A stretch of DNA of 36,262 nucleotides from Defluviitaleaceae bacterium (GTDB lineage Bacteria > Bacillota > Clostridia > Lachnospirales > WRAX01). Below are positions 9,430 to 35,567 of the stretch, in pieces. A program made the position numbers and the translations under genes. Position 1 is the first letter of the stretch. Each line of letters begins with the position of its first letter. The notes under the pieces are model-generated. The model was given only the letters and a program-made list of their open reading frames with translations. It did not search any database and was not told where the DNA came from. The stretch covers positions 1-36,262 of the forward strand of contig WRAC01000028.1 in the NCBI GenBank assembly GCA_009780415.1, read 5' to 3'.

Positions 9430-9511
9430 ATAATCAGCTCCTATTCTTATTATATTTAAAATAAATATAAAATAACTATACATATATAAATCCAAAAAAG
9501 ATGAAAAAGAC

Positions 9512-9540
9512 TTGAAATATGTTTTTATTTGTTGTATGCT
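9512..9540 (+). promoter_or_regulatory. Promoter for XRE regulator
   Basis: TTGAAA (9512-9517), 17 bases, TATGCT (9535-9540) with an upstream TG. It lies in the AT-rich divergent region 9430-9562 between the RHH and XRE genes; either regulator could act there. Confidence 0.55.
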
Positions 9541-9562
9541 AAAATAAAAAGAGGTTAATCAC

Positions 9563-9802
9563 ATGGACAACAAAATTGGAACAAGGGTACGCGAATTGAG
9601 AATATCCCAAAATCTTACAATGCTTGAACTCAGCAAGCTAATTGATGTTTCCTACAGCTTTATGGGGCTTATTGAACGCAACCAACGAACCCCCGGCATT
9701 AAAAACATAGCCAAGCTTTGCGGAATTCTTAATGTTTCTTATGATTATTTGATAATTGGAAAGGAGACGAATTTTATAGTTGACAACCGGGATGCGTTAT
9801 AA
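9563..9802 (+). CDS. XRE-family transcriptional regulator
   Basis: A 79-residue single-domain Cro/CI-type helix-turn-helix protein. RVRELRISQNLTMLELSKLI, then VSYSFMGLIERNQR as recognition helix, then GIKNIAKLCGILNVSYDYLI, is the classic HTH_3 arrangement. AGAGG lies 8 bases before the ATG. It has no effector domain, so it probably acts as a small repressor. Composition is AT-rich compared with the neighbours, like the divergent RHH gene, which suggests both came in together. Its last codons contain the promoter of the downstream yceD-rpmF-plsX operon. Confidence 0.88.
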   Translation: MDNKIGTRVRELRISQNLTMLELSKLIDVSYSFMGLIERNQRTPGIKNIAKLCGILNVSYDYLIIGKETNFIVDNRDAL

Positions 9803-9835: not shown

Positions 9836-10297
9836 GTGGAGCTGACGGTTGATGTCTCGCAGACTGTGCCGGGGGAAACGGTTTCCGTTAATGTAAAAGG
9901 CCCGGTCCGGCTGCCGGACGGTTTCAGCCACGGCAAAAAAGCGGCTGCGGCGGACGTAAGCTTTACGGGTTCGCTGTGCCGTGAAAGCGGTGTGTTCCAG
10001 ACAGGCAGATTTATTATTGAGGGGAGCCTTACGGCTGAGATACCGGCGGTATGCGCCCTTTGCCTGAAGGATATACGCTGGACGGTGGATTGCGGTATCC
10101 GCGAATTTTATTCGCGTGAGCCGGGCGACATTGACGAATGGCCCGCGGCGGATAATATTTTGGATTTGACGCAGGCGTTTGCCGCGAATATCCTGACCGC
10201 GCTGCCGATGAAACTGGTTTGCTCCGAAGGCTGTAAAGGTCTTTGCCCCGCTTGCGGAAAAGACAGAAACAACGATAATTGTTCATGTAATGAGTAA
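9836..10297 (+). CDS. yceD: YceD family (DUF177) protein
   Basis: A 153-residue YceD/DUF177 protein, almost always encoded directly before rpmF as here; family members are linked to 23S rRNA or ribosome maturation. Metal-binding cysteines are visible: CALCLKD in the middle and a C-terminal cluster CSEGCKGLCPACGKD plus a final CSC. Translation starts at GTG 9836 with GGAG about 8 bases upstream. It is the first gene of the ribosome-lipid operon, with 14 bases to rpmF. Molecular function beyond the family link is not known from sequence. Confidence 0.9.
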   Translation: MELTVDVSQTVPGETVSVNVKGPVRLPDGFSHGKKAAAADVSFTGSLCRESGVFQTGRFIIEGSLTAEIPAVCALCLKDIRWTVDCGIREFYSREPGDIDEWPAADNILDLTQAFAANILTALPMKLVCSEGCKGLCPACGKDRNNDNCSCNE

Positions 10298-10311
10298 CGG
10301 AGGTTTTAGGA

Positions 10312-10497
10312 ATGGGAGCTATATGCCCAAAAGGTAAACATTCGGCGTCAAGGCGCGACAAACGCCGCGCCCAGAGCTTTAGGATACCTAAAGTAACGCT
10401 TTCCAAATGCCCCAAGTGCGCGGCGCTGATGAAGCCGCACAGAGCGTGCAAGGCCTGCGGCGCTTACAATAACCGCGAAGTGCTGAACGTCGGTTAA
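10312..10497 (+). CDS. rpmF: 50S ribosomal protein L32
   Basis: A 61-residue L32 protein. It has the basic N-terminal stretch SASRRDKRRAQ, then a zinc-ribbon pair CPKC and CKACG around PHRA, the zinc-binding (C+) form. The N-terminus MGAICPKGK is a few residues longer than the common M-A-V-P-K form and adds an extra Cys. A GGAGG Shine-Dalgarno precedes the ATG. Position between yceD and plsX is the conserved bacterial order. Confidence 0.96.
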   Translation: MGAICPKGKHSASRRDKRRAQSFRIPKVTLSKCPKCAALMKPHRACKACGAYNNREVLNVG

Positions 10498-17023: not shown

Positions 17024-17042
17024 GTAATTCGGGGTGAAAATT

Positions 17043-18260
17043 GTGTATAAATATCTAAAATATGCCGCGATTCTTGTCTTAACGCTAAACATGCTGATAG
17101 GCTCAAGCTTCAGCGCCGCGGATTTTGCCAGGCCGACAAATGAGGAGTGGATTTACGGCGGAGGGCTGGTATCCTCACAGGTACGAAGGGTCAAGCTTTC
17201 CGCCGTGGGCGATTTGATGGTGCATTCAAGGCAGTCCGAGGATGCCCTGCGAAAAGGCGGAGGCGGAGGCGTCTACAATTATGATTATTCATTTTCATAC
17301 ATAAAAAGGCATTTCGCCCAGTCCGGTATAGTGGTTGGAAACCTTGAAACTGTGCTGAACAACGAGTTCCGGGATTTCCCGCTGTTCAGCGTAACGGACG
17401 AGTTTGCCCACGCCCTGAAAAACGCGGGGTTCACCATGCTTACAACCGCCAACAACCACAGCCTTGACCGGGGCTTGAACGGGCTTTTACGCACGTTAGA
17501 CGTGCTGGATGAACTTGAGATAACCGCTTTCGGCACATACCGCACCCAGGAAGACCGCGACAACATCCTGATTGTCGAGGAAAACGGCATAACGTTCGCG
17601 TTCCTCAGCTATTCCTACAGCACCAACGGCATAGCGATTCCCGGCGGCAGGAATTACCTTATCAATTTGCTGGACGAATCGCTCTACACCGCCGATATAA
17701 GGCGCGCGAGGGCACTGAACCCCGATTTCATCATCGTTATGCCCCATTGGGGGCATGAATACGAAAGCCATGTGCGCCGGGATATTAGAAATATTGCGGC
17801 GAATATGTTCCGGGCCGGAGCCGATATCATTCTGGGGCACCATCCCCACGTTGTCCAGCCGGCCGAGTTTGTGACGGTTGTTGACGATGACGGCACGGAA
17901 CGCACCGGATTCGTTGCGTATTCCATGGCGAACTTTATTTCCGGGCAGCGTACGACTCCAAGGGACGCGGGGGTTATCTTCAACCTGTATTTTGAGCGCG
18001 TGGGGAACGAAAAACCCACACTTGCCGCCGTTTCATACATTCCAACATGGGTAAAATGGCGGCAGGACGGCGTGTTCAACATTGCCGTAATGTCGGTTTA
18101 CGATATTTTAACCGCCCATATGTGGGGCGGCGACACCGGGCTTTCTCAGGCCGACATCAACCGCGTGCGGAATGTGCAGGTGGAGACGACGCGGACAATT
18201 ACCGGCACGGCGGTTCCTGTCGAATCCATCGCGCCGGAGTATTTTATCCGCAATGAATAA
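17043..18260 (+). CDS. CapA-family protein (metallophosphatase-like, exported)
   Basis: A 405-residue protein of the PgsA/CapA family, calcineurin-like metallophosphatases tied to poly-gamma-glutamate or envelope polymer synthesis. Motifs: AVGDLMVHSR, GNLETVL, TTANNHSLDRG, MPHWGHEYES and GADIILGHHPHVVQP supply the expected Asp/His/Asn metal ligands. An N-terminal hydrophobic stretch (residues 6-23) looks like a signal peptide or membrane anchor. GTG 17043 is preferred because GGGGTG lies 6 bases upstream; the frame opens at GTG 17034, which overlaps that site. No capB/capC partner is nearby, so polymer synthesis is not demonstrated. Confidence 0.87.
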   Translation: MYKYLKYAAILVLTLNMLIGSSFSAADFARPTNEEWIYGGGLVSSQVRRVKLSAVGDLMVHSRQSEDALRKGGGGGVYNYDYSFSYIKRHFAQSGIVVGNLETVLNNEFRDFPLFSVTDEFAHALKNAGFTMLTTANNHSLDRGLNGLLRTLDVLDELEITAFGTYRTQEDRDNILIVEENGITFAFLSYSYSTNGIAIPGGRNYLINLLDESLYTADIRRARALNPDFIIVMPHWGHEYESHVRRDIRNIAANMFRAGADIILGHHPHVVQPAEFVTVVDDDGTERTGFVAYSMANFISGQRTTPRDAGVIFNLYFERVGNEKPTLAAVSYIPTWVKWRQDGVFNIAVMSVYDILTAHMWGGDTGLSQADINRVRNVQVETTRTITGTAVPVESIAPEYFIRNE

Positions 18261-18263
18261 TTT

Positions 18264-18332
18264 GAGGTAATTTAGCTAACGCGAAATATTGATTATGATT
18301 CTTTTTGGATTGCCAAAGAGAATCAAAAAACG
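18264..18332 (+). repeat. Dispersed two-hairpin element, copy A
   Basis: About 69 bases closely matching copies at 33511-33580 and 35468-35532 (minus). Hairpin 1: TTTAGC (18271-18276) and GCGAAA (18281-18286), loop TAAC, one mismatch. Hairpin 2: GATTCTTTTTGG (18297-18308) and CCAAAGAGAATC (18313-18324), loop ATTG, one wobble. It sits between the CapA-like and nucleotidyltransferase genes in the sense direction and ends 11 bases before the latter's ATG. It contains an in-frame TTG (18305) that is not a convincing start. Confidence 0.8.
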
Positions 18333-18343
18333 TGGAGAACAAA

Positions 18344-19243
18344 ATGTATAATCTTAACCTAGTAATATTAGCGGCGGGAATGGGCAGCAGGTTTGGCGGG
18401 CTGAAGCAGATACAGCCGGTTGACGGCAACGGCTGCTTTATTATCGATTATTCCGCCTATGACGCCATCCGCGCCGGGGCGGAGCATATTATCTTTGTGA
18501 TAAAAAAAGAAACGGAACGGGATTTCCGTGAAACGATAGGGGCGCGTATTGAGAAGCATGTTAAAACAACATATGTTTATCAGGACGTAAATGATATACC
18601 GCCCGGGTTTTCCGTGCCGGAGGGGCGGACAAAGCCCTGGGGCACGGGTCATGCGGTAATGGCGGCGCGGAATGTCATAACGGGGCCTTTTGCTACGGTT
18701 AACGCCGATGATTTTTACGGGCGTGACGCTTATGCGGAAATGTTCGTTTCCCTCAAAAAGCTTGCGCCCGGCACTTGCGTTATGGCGGGTTACGAGCTTC
18801 GCAACACCCTGTCTGAAATGGGCAGCGTTTCGCGCGGTATATGCAGAACTGATAGCGAAGGCTTGCTGCTGTCTGTTGAGGAGCATCATAAGGTTCAGCG
18901 TCAAGGTGATGTTGCGTCTGCGGAAAATTCAGCCGGGGAAATGGTCGAATTGCCCTTGGACGCGCCGGCATCCCTTAATATGTGGGGCTTTGCGGCTGAT
19001 ATCTTTGCCGATTTCGCAATAGAGTTCGAGGAATTTATAAGGGAAATGAAAAACCCGGCAACCGATGAATTCTATCTGCCCTCCTTTGTCCAGCGGCAGA
19101 TCGTAAAGAACCGCCTGGAAGCCCGCGTATGGCGAACAAAAGCCGAATGGCGCGGAATTACATATATAAAAGATTTGGATGAATTAATAAATAAAATTGC
19201 GGAATATAAACGAATGGGGTATTACCCGGAATCACTTTGGTGA
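18344..19243 (+). CDS. Sugar-phosphate nucleotidyltransferase-like protein
   Basis: A 299-residue protein of the NTP-transferase (GT-A fold) superfamily, related to UTP-glucose-1-phosphate uridylyltransferases. The N-terminal signature VILAAGMGSRFGGLKQ binds the nucleotide; PWGTGHAVMAAR and the metal-binding NADDFYGRDAY follow. The exact NTP and sugar phosphate are not assignable. ATG 18344 has GGAG 7 bases upstream. Longer starts fall inside the repeat element and are disfavoured. It follows the CapA-like gene by 83 bases filled by that repeat. Confidence 0.83.
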   Translation: MYNLNLVILAAGMGSRFGGLKQIQPVDGNGCFIIDYSAYDAIRAGAEHIIFVIKKETERDFRETIGARIEKHVKTTYVYQDVNDIPPGFSVPEGRTKPWGTGHAVMAARNVITGPFATVNADDFYGRDAYAEMFVSLKKLAPGTCVMAGYELRNTLSEMGSVSRGICRTDSEGLLLSVEEHHKVQRQGDVASAENSAGEMVELPLDAPASLNMWGFAADIFADFAIEFEEFIREMKNPATDEFYLPSFVQRQIVKNRLEARVWRTKAEWRGITYIKDLDELINKIAEYKRMGYYPESLW

Positions 19244-31077: not shown

Positions 31078-33495
31078 ATGCGTATACAATCGTTAAGCGG
31101 CTGTTGGGAAATGTCTGCGGCGGATGGCGGCGGAGTTGTGGAGGCCAGGATTCCCGGCTCGGTGTACTCCGCGCTGCTGGACGCGGGTAAGATGGACGAC
31201 CCGTTTTGGCGTTGCAATGAACTTCACGCGCTGAAGCTGATGGAGAAGGACTACGAGTTCACCCGCGTTTTTGACTGGGATCATGCGGACGCGGAAATGG
31301 AGAAAGTATTGCTGCGCTGCGAGGGGCTGGACACGGTTTGCGACATCGTGTTGAACGGCACAAAAATCGGTTACGCGGATAATATGCACAGGATATGGGA
31401 ATTTGACGCAACCGGCGCAGTGCGTTCCAAAGAGAACACTTTGAAAATTATTTTCCGTTCACCCACTAAATATATAGAAGCCCGTCAAAACGAAGTATTT
31501 GTTGACGGTTCGACGGACGCCATGTTCGGCTTCCCCCACCTGAGGAAGGCGCACTGCATGTTCGGCTGGGATTGGGGCGCGCGGCTGCCGGATGCCGGTA
31601 TTTGGCGCGATATTTCATTAATCGGCATAGAAAAAGGGCGTTTGGAGAGCGTTTATGTCACCCAAGGGCATAAAGACGGAGAAGTCTCGCTTGGCTTTGA
31701 GATTGAAGCGTCCTGCTCCGGCGGTTTGGCGGTTACGGTTACTTGCCCGGACGGCACTGTGCTTTATTCGGACGGAAAACCGATATTAATTGAAAAACCG
31801 GCCTTATGGTGGCCCAACGGTTACGGCGAACAGCCGCTGTACACCGTTCGCGTCTCTCTTATGGAAGGCCCGCGTGAGCTGGATAGCTGGGAAAAACGCG
31901 TAGGCCTGCGCACGCTGACGGTTTTGCGTGAAAAGGACGAGTGGGGCGAGGGCTTTGCCATTTGCGTGAACGGGGTCAAGATATTCGCCATGGGTGCGGA
32001 TTACATACCACAGGACAACATCCTCTCCCGCGTTACGGAAGAAAAGATACGCGCGCTGCTCAAGGACTGCGCGGCGGCGCATTTCAACACGGTACGCATT
32101 TGGGGCGGCGGTTATTATCCCTGCGGCACTTTTTATGATGTCTGCGACGAGCTGGGCCTTATTGTCCTGCAAGACTTTATGTTCGCCTGCGCAATCTACG
32201 AGCTTACCCCGGAGTTTGAGGAAAATATAAAAGCCGAGTTTGAGGATAACATCAAACGTTTGCGGCATCACGCCTCCTTGGGTATGTGGTGCGGCAACAA
32301 CGAGCTGGAGTGGGCGCATTTTGACGGCTGGTACAAGCATACGCCGGAGCAGCGGGAGTACTATGTGCGCATGTTCGAGGAGATCCTGCCGGAAATGACC
32401 GCAAAGCACGACCCGCAGACCTTCTACTGGCCTGCCTCACCCTCGTCAGGCGGCGGGTTTGACAACCCCAACGACTTTAACCGCGGCACCGTCCATTACT
32501 GGCAAGTGTGGCACGGTAACAAGCCCTTCAGCGACTACAGGAATTTCCACTTCCGTTTTGTGTCCGAATTCGGCTTCCAGAGCTTCCCGGACATAAAAAC
32601 CATCGAATCCTTCACCTTACCGGAGGACAGAAACATCTTCTCCCGCGTGATGGAGACCCATCAGCGTAACGCCGGGGCAAACGGCAAGATTATGAATTAC
32701 CTGTCGGCAATGTATCTGTATCCCGAGGATTTCAACACTTTACTGTACGCGTCCCAGCTTCTTCAAGCGGACGCGATACGCTACGGCGTAGAGCATTGGA
32801 GGCGCAACCGCGGGCGTTGTATGGGGGCCATTTACTGGCAGATAAACGACATATGGCCCGTGGCATCCTGGGCGTCGCTGGATTACTTCGGGCGGTGGAA
32901 AGCCCTGCATTACTCCGCCAAACGCTTCTTCGCGCCCGTTATGATATCCTGCCACGAAACAGGCGAGATGACCGAGCGGCCCAATTGCAACATCCAGCCC
33001 GCCCCCATCCGTAAGGCCGCCAGGCTGTCCGTCGCCAACGAGACAATGGCGGCGGTATCCGGCACGGTCAAGTGGGCGTTGCGTGAGCCTTCCGGGAAAG
33101 TGCGGAAAAGCGGCGAGCAAGCGGTGACTGTGGAGGCATTGACATCTTTGTGGCTTGACGAGCTTGATTTCTCTGATTGCGACGAGCTTAGCAGCTATGT
33201 CAGCTTCTCTTTTGAAACGGATACGGTTGTTTCATCCGGGACGGCGTTATTCTGTATGCCCAAGCATTTTGCGTTTATGGATCCGGCGTTAAAGGTTACG
33301 CGTAACGGGGACGGCATTACCGTACAAGCGCAAGCTTTCGCCAAAAGCGTGGAGCTGTACTCCGACACTGAAGATTTTGTCTTGTCGGACAATTTCTTTG
33401 ACATTAATGAAGGAAGCATAACCGTAAAAATACTGCGCGGCGACCCAAAGCATGTGAAAGTACGTTCCGTGTGGGATATCGGGCGCGGGAAATAA
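31078..33495 (+). CDS. GH2 beta-mannosidase
   Basis: Releases mannose from the non-reducing end of beta-1,4-manno-oligosaccharides. 805 residues, no signal peptide, so cytoplasmic. N-terminal sugar-binding jelly roll with [13 protein letters not shown], the immunoglobulin-like linker containing [12 protein letters not shown], then the TIM barrel. The acid/base Glu is E409 in WCGNNE and the nucleophile Glu is E497 in VSEFGFQS, both in family context. GGGG lies about 6 bases before the ATG. Divergent from the ABC importer, which would supply substrate. Assigned as mannosidase rather than galactosidase by these motifs. Confidence 0.93.
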
Positions 33496-33510: not shown

Positions 33511-33580
33511 GAGGTAATTTCGCTAACGCGAAATATTGATTGAAATTCTTTTTGGATTGCCAAAAAGAATCAAAAAAACG
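33511..33580 (+). repeat. Dispersed two-hairpin element, copy B
   Basis: Best-preserved copy. Hairpin 1: ATTTCGC (33517-33523) and GCGAAAT (33528-33534), loop TAAC. Hairpin 2: ATTCTTTTTGG (33545-33555) and CCAAAAAGAAT (33560-33570), loop ATTG, followed by C and seven A. It lies 15 bases after the beta-mannosidase stop in the sense direction. Confidence 0.85.
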
Positions 33581-33586
33581 GCTGGT

Positions 33587-33632
33587 AATATTCCGCATTG
33601 TATTGTACAATGTATAATGCGGAATATTTTTT
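33587..33632 (+). terminator. Intrinsic terminator between beta-mannosidase and CitG-like gene
   Basis: Inverted repeat AATATTCCGCATT (33587-33599) and AATGCGGAATATT (33616-33628), perfect 13-base stem, loop of 16, with T at 33627-33632. The right arm also contains a TATAAT word (33613-33618) without a fitting -35. It ends only 16 bases before the CitG-like ATG, so it could attenuate that gene. Confidence 0.7.
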
Positions 33633-33648: not shown

Positions 33649-34542
33649 ATGAACGCTGAAAAAATAGGCACCATTGCGATAAACGCACTGACGCGGGCGC
33701 TTGCCGCAACTATAAAGCCGGGGCTTGTGGACAGGAATTCAAACGGGGCGCGGAAGGACGTTGATTTCTTTACCGAGCTTGCGGCGATAAACGCCATGTC
33801 GCCCTGGCTTATTGAGATTGCGCGTTTGAGTATTGACAGCGCGAAGATGTCGCCGACGATACTTTTTTCGGATATAAGAAAACTCGGGCTGAAAGCCGAA
33901 GCGGATATGAATGCGGCAACCGGCGGGCTTAACACGTATAAAGGGAGCTTGTTCAGCTTGGCGTTGTGCGTTGCGGCGGCAGGCAGGTCCGTCGCGTCGA
34001 AAATTACGCCCGAATCAAACAGCGTTTGCATTCTTGCGTCTGAAATGGCACAGGATCTGTGCCAGCGTGAGCTGGATTCGCTGGACGTCAAAATCAACCT
34101 GATCGGCGAAACAAGTCTCTCAGCAGGCGAACGCGTTTACATGAAGTATAAGTTTACCGGGGCGCGTGGAGAGGCACAGGGCGGCTTCCAAACCGTGCGC
34201 AAGCAGGCCATGCCCGTAATACGGAAGTATAAAGACGACAAAACCGTCAGCATGAACGATATGTACGTGCAAACCTATATGACGTTGATGGCCCACACCG
34301 ATGACACGGGCATCTGCGCCAAGGAGAGCGACCTTGCCGTTGAAGAGGTGCGCGACCGCGCCAAGGGCATTCTGGAGCGCGGAGGGATCTTTACTCCTCT
34401 GGGACGCGAGAAAATCGAAAAGCTTGACGTTCACATGCGCGGACGGGGGCTGTATCCCGGCGCGTCGGGTGCGCTGCTTACCGTGGCGATATTCCTAAGT
34501 ATGCTGGAGGAAGGGTCGAAGGGTAAAAAGAGGCGGGTGTAA
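33649..34542 (+). CDS. CitG-family (triphosphoribosyl-dephospho-CoA synthase-like) protein
   Basis: A 297-residue protein of the CitG/MdcB family, which makes the prosthetic-group precursor of citrate lyase or malonate decarboxylase. It has the family framework: KPGLVDRNSNGARKDVDFF near residue 20, GLNTYKGSLFSLALC, TGARGEAQGGFQTVR, and GLYPGASGALL near the C-terminus. Two usually conserved His positions are changed: GA-H to GA-R, and NTH-KG to NTY-KG. No citrate lyase or malonate decarboxylase gene is in the window. GGGAG precedes the ATG. It may have a related but different substrate. Confidence 0.78.
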   Translation: MNAEKIGTIAINALTRALAATIKPGLVDRNSNGARKDVDFFTELAAINAMSPWLIEIARLSIDSAKMSPTILFSDIRKLGLKAEADMNAATGGLNTYKGSLFSLALCVAAAGRSVASKITPESNSVCILASEMAQDLCQRELDSLDVKINLIGETSLSAGERVYMKYKFTGARGEAQGGFQTVRKQAMPVIRKYKDDKTVSMNDMYVQTYMTLMAHTDDTGICAKESDLAVEEVRDRAKGILERGGIFTPLGREKIEKLDVHMRGRGLYPGASGALLTVAIFLSMLEEGSKGKKRRV

Positions 34543-34647: not shown

Positions 34648-35448
34648 TTAAAACACCGGCACAACCGCGCCTCTGTATCTTTCGAGTATAAAATCCCGTA
34701 CTTTCTCGGTCTGAAGAACCTCCAGCAGTTTTTTAATGTTTTCGCAATCCGCGTCTTCGCCCCGGACGGCTACTATGTTGGCATAGGGTGAATCCACGCC
34801 TTCCATGGCAACCGCGTCGTCCATGGGGTTAAGGCCGACGGACAGGGCGAAGTTGGTGTTTATTACCGAAATATCCGTCTCGCCCAGCAGCCGCGGCAGC
34901 ATGGCGGCTTCTATCTCGGTGATGTTGAGGTTTTTCGGGTTATGTGTTATATCGCCCGGAATGGCGCGCAGCCCGACGCCGTCACGCAGGGTGATAAGAC
35001 CGAGGCTCTCCAGCAGAAGCAGCGCCCTGCCGCCGTTTACCGCGTCGTTGGGTATACCGACAACCGCGCCGTCGGGAAGGTCGGCCAGGTCGTCTATCCT
35101 TTGCGAATATACGCCCATCGGCTCGATATGGACTTTACCGACAACCGCAATGTCCCTGCCGGTGTTTGCGATATAGTTGTCAAGGTAGGGGACATGCTGG
35201 AAGTAGTTTGCGTCAAGCTGCCCGTCGGCAAGGGCGGGATTCACAAGGGCAAAGTCGCTGAATTCGCGGATTTCAAGCTCGATACCGGCGGCTGATAGAT
35301 CAGCTCTTACAAACTCCAGTATCTCGGCATGGGGGACGGCCGTCGCGCCGATGACTATCTTGCTGGCGTCTTCGGAGCGGCTGGCGCAGCCCGCCAGGGC
35401 TAGGGACAGCGCGAGGATTGCGCATACTGCGGTTAAAAGCTTTTTCAT
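34648..35448 (-). CDS. metQ: MetQ/NlpA-family methionine-binding lipoprotein
   Basis: Substrate-binding lipoprotein of the MetNIQ methionine importer. 266 residues; signal peptide with lipobox LALAGC (Cys21). The mature part has the NlpA pattern VIGATAVPHAEIL, NYFQHVPYLDNY, the GVYSQ stretch and GIPNDAVNGGRALLLLE. AGGA lies about 10 bases upstream of the ATG. Encoded after metI, separated by 127 bases that carry one and a half copies of the dispersed hairpin element. Exact ligand (L- or D-methionine, or dipeptide) is not certain. Confidence 0.92.
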   Translation of the reverse strand: MKKLLTAVCAILALSLALAGCASRSEDASKIVIGATAVPHAEILEFVRADLSAAGIELEIREFSDFALVNPALADGQLDANYFQHVPYLDNYIANTGRDIAVVGKVHIEPMGVYSQRIDDLADLPDGAVVGIPNDAVNGGRALLLLESLGLITLRDGVGLRAIPGDITHNPKNLNITEIEAAMLPRLLGETDISVINTNFALSVGLNPMDDAVAMEGVDSPYANIVAVRGEDADCENIKKLLEVLQTEKVRDFILERYRGAVVPVF

Positions 35449-35467: not shown

Positions 35468-35532
35468 TTTTTTGATTCTTTTTGGCAATCCAAAAAGAAT
35501 TCTAATAAATAATTCGCGTTAGCGAAATTACC
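35468..35532 (-). repeat. Dispersed two-hairpin element, copy C
   Basis: The minus-strand reading gives the same order as copies A and B: GGTAATTTCGC, TAAC, GCGAA, then the ATTCTTTTTGG / CCAAAAAGAAT hairpin (35500-35475) and an A-rich tail. It is in the sense direction of metI-metQ and ends about 20 bases before the metQ ATG. Confidence 0.82.
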
Positions 35533-35567
35533 ATTTTTTGATTCTTTTTGGCAATCCAAAAAGATGC
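35533..35567 (-). repeat. Half copy of the dispersed element (second hairpin only)
   Basis: Directly adjoining copy C. The minus strand has TCTTTTTGG and CCAAAAAGA (9-base stem, 35564-35543, loop ATTG) with the A-rich tail, but lacks the first hairpin. It begins about 9 bases after the metI stop. Confidence 0.75.

Follow-up and report, generated by a model that had tools for sequence, protein, structure and literature searches.

Small repeats of bacterial genomes are usually viewed as selfish palindromes that are indifferent to orientation, and several known families cluster at the 3' ends of genes. Elements of the ERIC, NEMIS/Correia and BOX type are short, intergenic, non-coding, structured, dispersed and co-transcribed, and some of them alter mRNA cleavage in a manner that depends on their orientation (as summarised in PMC3049150). 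The pneumococcal BOX, RUP and SPRITE elements are over-represented between convergent genes, and one BOX lies between two T-boxes (PMC3049150). REPs are found mostly downstream of genes, and a GTAG/CGTC tag is part of their definition (PMC3733652). Intercistronic hairpins with assigned functions are described as well: stem-loops of the Ruminiclostridium cip-cel operon direct processing and stability (PMC10311766), and a hairpin downstream of the RNase Y cut stabilises the cggR-gapA mRNA of B. subtilis (PMC11780869). Finally, TAACTGA direct repeats of Beggiatoaceae lie mostly in the forward orientation close upstream of start codons, and a translational role was proposed for them (PMC4679880).

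Here we describe a non-coding repeat of ~65 nt, composed of two hairpins in a row and an A6(C) tail, from a 36,262-nt stretch of a Defluviitaleaceae genome (contig WRAC01000028.1, in full; hereafter the window). Like the ERIC, NEMIS/Correia and BOX-type elements it is short, intergenic, structured, dispersed and probably co-transcribed, and one copy sits inside a T-box leader; in contrast to those elements, it has no sequence or Rfam match, is sense-only, is almost always located just ahead of an SD, lacks terminal inverted repeats and a consistent target duplication, and occupies ~19 sites without enrichment between convergent genes. Like the REP/REPIN-RAYT system it is a short palindromic repeat that is sometimes arrayed, but it has neither the tag nor a Y1_Tnp gene and is sited upstream of starts. 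The repeat resembles small interspersed repeats in size and probable co-transcription but lacks defining features of REP/RAYT and MITE elements, and its placement differs from that of BOX/RUP/SPRITE and REP elements. As with the cip-cel and cggR-gapA processing sites, its hairpins are intercistronic and immediately precede the following cistron of a Firmicutes operon; those sites are unrelated sequences at single loci, whereas here one family occupies many operons and a processing role is only proposed. The Beggiatoaceae repeats form arrays of heptamers, overlap the position expected for the ribosome-binding site and mostly lack a canonical SD, in contrast to the two-hairpin unit described here, which keeps the SD. 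A second repeat, R2, from related Lachnospirales has the same size range, two hairpins, a pre-SD location, tandem arrays and a preference for ribosomal genes, but it also precedes tRNAs and RNase P RNA, has a few antisense matches and shows no detectable homology to the repeat of the window.

Copies of the repeat in the window

A sequence-only reading of the window had listed three copies of the unit plus a half copy, and all four pieces were located where it had placed them (18264-18330, 33511-33577, 35468-35532 and 35534-35564). The first (18264-18330, plus strand) consists of hairpin 1, an AU-rich spacer, hairpin 2 and an A6 tail; it starts 4 nt past the stop of the preceding gene (17034-18260), and 13 nt after its end comes a nucleotidyltransferase gene (18344-19243) that opens with ATG. 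The second (33511-33577, plus strand) has a GH2-like gene (31078-33495) upstream and a citG-like gene (33649-34542) downstream. The third (35468-35532, minus strand) is the second unit of a tandem pair, with the metQ ATG (gene at 34648-35448, minus strand) 19 nt downstream. Directly upstream of it is the 5'-truncated half copy (35533-35567, minus strand), which comprises hairpin 2 and the tail only and is 100% identical over 31 nt (35534-35564). Across 65-67 nt the units share 91-94% identity, and they fold far below shuffled sequences (z of -3.8 and -4.8, and of -5.2 for the array at 35468-35567). As had been claimed, all 3 full copies are flanked by, and read with, co-directional genes.

The same reading held that the stems are kept by compensating or wobble changes. 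With respect to wobble this was borne out in the window, where hairpin 2 of the 18264 copy contains one G-U pair. With respect to compensation it was not: no compensating change is present in the window stems, and two mismatches, an A.G in hairpin 1 at 18264 and a U.U in hairpin 1 at 35468, are uncompensated. Compensating changes were found only in copies elsewhere in the genome. Downstream of the 33511 copy and outside the repeat unit is a separate terminator-like hairpin with a T-run (33587-33628, plus strand), a long perfect hairpin between this copy and the SD of the citG-like gene; only the SD follows, and then the gene.

Genome-wide census

A search of the full genome (2.53 Mb in 85 contigs, estimated to be 100% complete, with the window as contig C28), which the sequence-only reading had proposed, was performed by BLAST, a covariance model (R1) and a tail-pattern search. 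It yielded ~19 sites, amounting to 22-23 units when tandems and remnants are counted. In addition to the three window sites, one of which is the full-plus-half tandem, copies are located at C15:4822; at C13:51192 and 51264, a tandem before groEL in the groES-groEL gap; and on C30 at 18998 (rpsM/rpsK gap), 19841 (between a KOW gene and infA), 23591 (rpsE/rpmD gap, hairpin 2 lost) and 25787 (rplE/rpsN gap). Contig C3 bears copies at 31352, 37147 (hairpin 2 only) and 61541 (a 3' arm or tail-only remnant). The remaining sites are C11:2622, before flhF; C4:17224, C22:39063, C2:23798 and C35:4172; C67:7308/7376/7444, a three-unit array that is preceded by a consensus promoter and extends off the contig end; and C37:2483, a tail remnant. 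Downstream genes thus include groEL, rpsK, rpsN, rpmD, infA, metQ and flhF, together with kduI-like, citG-like, radical SAM and M42 peptidase genes.

Copies across the genome are 69-98% identical, and both tandem expansion and 5' truncation are seen among them; clearly, they have multiplied inside this genome. The truncated copies (C3:37147, C28:35534, C3:61541 and C37:2483) all retain the 3' end, and the BLAST census contained no partial copy made of the 5' side alone.

Design and structure of the unit

The consensus is GG(T/A)(A/G)A-TTTCGC-TAAC-GCGAAAT-nTTGATTTGA-ATTCTTTTTGG-ATTG-CCAAAAAGAAT-CAAAAAAC. For 7 of 8 pieces the folding z was ~-3 to -6. A two-helix model pairs 96% of cells in an alignment of 11 copies, and the covariation score of the repeat exceeded those of all 500 shuffles (0/500). 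In helix 1, two or three pairs are changed on both sides (U-A to C-G; C-G to U-A or A-U), each in single copies at different loci. Hairpin 2 has a near-invariant stem with wobbles and a loop that is mostly ATTG, and so is uninformative regarding selection on pairing. In the C22:39063 copy (L015:1501-1566) the loop of hairpin 2 is inverted, reading GGCAGTCC instead of GGATTGCC, possibly a trace of template switching at a palindrome. Since self-templated repair can restore palindromes, and the C22 loop hints at such events, compensation is not proof of selection on the RNA.

In every copy the tail is A-rich and not U-rich. Terminal inverted repeats are absent, as the left end, GG(T/A)(A/G)ATTTCGC, is not complementary to the right end, GAATCAAAAAAC. 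With regard to a target-site duplication, SD-like sequence (GAGGT, AGGAA) is common in the left flanks and is present in the right flank too, and at C15:4822 GAGGTAA is present on both flanks; the similarity is inconsistent across copies, as judged against empty sites from outside the genus.

Position and orientation of the copies

Tabulated by orientation and by distance to the start codon, as the earlier reading had recommended, every judgeable site was in sense, and at 16 of 18 the A-tail ended 8-27 nt before the start codon (13, 19, 12, 21, 13, 14 (or 20), 27, 14, 8 (ATT), 15, 17, 19, 11, 16, 17 and 13 nt). SD-like motifs mostly lie between the tail and the start; the repeat ends just before the SD and does not replace it. 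The genome-wide census contained no antisense copies, no copies inside genes and none between convergent genes. The pattern that the sequence-only reading had set against its own interpretation, namely random orientation, genic copies and no stem conservation, was therefore absent throughout the genome, in which stems do show compensation.

As a null, we placed insertions at random positions and orientations in ~107 intergenic gaps of the same genome and scored those in sense and 8-27 nt from the start. Random insertion gave such placements at a rate of 0.09-0.15, for which the P value of 16 of 18 is about 1e-11 or less. When a co-directional gap and sense orientation were granted, the null rate was 31% and P was ~1e-6. 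Taken together, the BLAST census, folding below shuffles and the placement null led us to reject a chance origin.

The 2 exceptions among the 18 sites are the 33511 copy, where the terminator-like hairpin intervenes before the SD of the next gene, and C22:39063, which lies inside a T-box leader. At the latter, an Rfam T-box at 1374-1703 of L015 spans the repeat, and a metN-like gene is downstream; the T-box scores under the Rfam cut-off, and the repeat occupies its interdomain linker. Both exceptional sites are still in transcribed leaders, and the operon context of the copies in general suggests that the repeat is co-transcribed. On C3, another T-box leader (L019:1576-1843) is followed directly by a hairpin-2-only copy.

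Origin and spread

Relatives of the host were found through SecY (nearest named records JAISVU010000353.1, 75%, and WQWB01000077.1, 68%). Many SecY neighbours are labelled Defluviitaleaceae or Clostridiales MAGs and, to judge by isolate names, the host and its relatives are probably from termite guts. The rpsM-rpsK, rplE-rpsN and rpsE-rpmD gaps of the relatives are mostly 10-30 nt and contain an SD only, indicating that the repeat units are insertions rather than ancestral leaders. No convincing copy turned up in 15 relatives from the family or in the order at large (295 genomes), and the exact core pattern was found in neither GTDB r220 nor viral contigs, a search from which very near genomes may be hidden. 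The plasmid collection yielded no copy of the repeat, and two phage matches were weak and partial (E 0.2-0.6). These absences point to a lineage-specific expansion. The sequence-only reading had not recognised a named family, and indeed no Rfam match was obtained in the window at the gathering score; near copies, only T-box leaders and noise appeared at E<=1.

We also considered how the copies might have been mobilised. A Y1 (HUH) transposase (PF01797) had no match in the 85 contigs of the genome, while control genomes were positive; a past loss is possible. GTAG and CGTC tags are absent from the foot of every copy. A REP/RAYT or IS200/605-derived origin was rejected, as both the Y1 transposase and the GTAG tag are lacking. 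Spread by a resident reverse transcriptase was likewise set aside: the sole RVT_1 gene (C9:54274) looks like part of a diversity-generating retroelement and is no obvious driver. Nevertheless, a reverse-transcription route stays conceivable in view of the 5'-truncated copies. The RVT_1 locus itself (L214; C9:54274-54831 of the host genome, G000) encodes a 363-aa reverse transcriptase beside an FGE/C-type-lectin-like variable protein, an apparent diversity-generating retroelement.

A parallel repeat in related genomes

In some relatives the same ribosomal gaps contain other repeats, of which R2 is the best. R2 is ~69 nt long, has two hairpins, forms tandem arrays and is mostly in sense; its consensus is GTCTTTTTGCC-(loop)-GGCAAAAA-ACCGT, then a 17-bp stem with a conserved apical GYGUWGAAGC..., then ACTG, usually followed by AYTAGGAGG. 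BLAST identified 9-11 copies in each of two MAGs, and a model identified R2 in 13 of 295 genomes, with up to 17 copies each among the matches listed (L184-L203 and L234-L272; genomes G322, G323, G150, G236, G091, G178, G100, G010 and others). One of these genomes (G010) belongs to the window's own family; the window genome lacks R2. Of 35 sites inspected, about 22 are followed at 14-27 nt by a start codon with SD support; at two rplK sites the distance is 48 nt. The downstream genes, named from translated starts and not by family search, include rplJ, fusA, rpsE, rpsK, rpsD, rplE, rpsH, rpsS, rpsN, rpsA, atpD and others. Further R2 copies directly precede tRNA-Leu, tRNA-His or tRNA-Lys; in two genomes a copy is found at the RNase P RNA 5' end, and R2 also occupies the stretch that separates the L10 leader from the rplJ SD. 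At least 4 matches, partly weak, are antisense to their neighbours, indicating that the orientation of R2 is biased rather than strict.

Pairing in R2 extends to 94.4% of cells, with compensatory changes in 19 of 25 pairs (59 distinct sequences), and its covariation was 0.461 compared to 0.131 shuffled and <= 0.128 slid, in an alignment fitted to the model. With no match in Rfam 15, R2 represents a strongly covarying RNA structure missing from that database. Neither the R2 model nor that of the window repeat detects the other, tested both ways; at the level of sequence the two appear analogous, with homology that is not detectable. R2 similarity is 0.84 within a genome, 0.75 at the same site across genomes and 0.73 at different sites. 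The pattern points to turnover and fits either copies that spread again and again to equivalent places or concerted evolution. Another pre-SD repeat (TTCCTGTC-TTCG-GACAGGAA, CCGGCTC-TAAC-GAGCCG) was observed in G307 (L091:662-757 and 9455-9615), in tandem before rpmJ and once before rplP, with mostly partial matches elsewhere in that genome.

Proposed role and alternatives

The sequence-only reading took the unit for a transcribed element and not a terminator, and its sense-only sites, pre-SD place at 16 of 18, stem compensation and A-rich tail support that view. We tentatively propose, with confidence a little short of even, that the repeat, a lineage-specific and probably co-transcribed small interspersed element, serves between cistrons as a 5'-end, processing or stability spacer. 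Its fixed direction, pre-SD place and kept pairing, together with the parallel of R2, which extends to non-coding RNAs, argue that the transcript matters; R2, likewise built and likewise positioned in related bacteria, makes the repeat look like a recurring type of RNA spacer rather than random junk DNA. Under this proposal, the polycistronic mRNA would be cleaved within the AU-rich spacer or the gap by an endonuclease of the RNase Y type, leaving the downstream cistron with a fresh 5' end that a hairpin would protect against 5'-to-3' decay, and the unpaired A-rich tail would hold the ribosome-entry site accessible. The dose of groEL, rpsK, rpsN, rpmD, infA, metQ and other downstream genes would then be set apart from that of the genes upstream, and copies would have spread by some duplicative route. 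Decayed copies are tolerated, however (C30:23591 without hairpin 2; tail-only C3:61541 and C37:2483), which would be surprising for a required structure, and the greater similarity of R2 within a genome than at the same site counts against long-term conservation at each gene. Operons with and without a unit, with one to three units, or with a hairpin deleted are natural before-and-after cases in which intercistronic processing is tractable.

The closest rival, which we consider a serious though on balance doubtful contender, is that the repeat is a small, mobile and selfish one, MITE-, REP- or ERIC-like and of no benefit to the host; its sense, pre-SD placement would then stem from the way it inserts, perhaps at a strand-specific target near the purine-rich SD or by copying through RNA, and from the purging of harmful insertions. 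The pre-SD slot is indeed also the least harmful place for an insertion in a tight operon. A lineage-restricted burst of copies that are 69-98% identical fits this rival, as do gaps filled here and empty in relatives, tandem arrays, decayed remnants, truncated copies that all keep the 3' end, and the within-genome likeness of R2. What it accommodates poorly is the absence of antisense copies and of copies between convergent genes, unlike BOX/RUP/SPRITE or REPs, and the lack of terminal inverted repeats, a consistent target duplication, a Y1 transposase or any reverse transcriptase other than one resembling the diversity-generating type. The two readings could be compatible, with a selfish repeat being retained where its RNA is harmless or useful.

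That the hairpins instead bind a trans-acting protein or small RNA, co-tuning translation of the downstream genes as a regulon, is improbable. Adjacency to the SD, the constrained loop (mostly ATTG) and near-invariant stem of hairpin 2, the conserved apical loop of R2 and enrichment before ribosomal and chaperone genes are in keeping with it, but high sequence identity may reflect recent spread only, the downstream genes are otherwise unrelated (groEL, flhF, metQ, kduI-like, citG-like, radical SAM, M42 peptidase), and copies occur in a T-box linker and before a terminator, with R2 before tRNAs as well. An intrinsic terminator or attenuator is very improbable: the intergenic hairpins are stable and a terminator-like site follows one copy, but the tail is A-rich in every copy, and the copies ahead of rpsK, rpsN and rpmD place the hairpins within essential ribosomal operons, where termination would be costly.

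Beyond the proposed spacer, we entertain as a rather unlikely possibility that a self-spreading, sense-only, two-hairpin class (the window repeat, R2 and perhaps the G307 repeat) colonises slots before SDs and the 5' ends of stable RNAs in Lachnospirales, having arisen by several origins or replacements, and that it is used as, or copied through, RNA and creates new operon 5' ends. More generally, a sense-only repeat at the ribosome-binding sites of core genes, alongside an unrelated-looking family of like design in neighbouring genera, would imply that use at the RNA level or insertion linked to RNA determines where such repeats reside.

Two further kinds of hairpin were encountered. A GC-rich one (GTAGGGACGGTCTGTGACCGTCC...) occupies the rpsN-rpsH gap, after the stop and ahead of the SD (C30:25530-25590; L063 ~10285-10335); it is single-copy, with only 25-nt partial matches elsewhere, and so is of no use as an orientation control. 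Weak model matches in the unrelated genomes G028, G046 and G230 turned out, when read, to come from longer repeats of another kind or from simple A/T hairpins and were discarded; at these loci (L057-L062), a similar TTTCTTTTTGn4CCAAAAAGAAACAAAAA hairpin with an A-rich tail is embedded in longer intergenic repeats.
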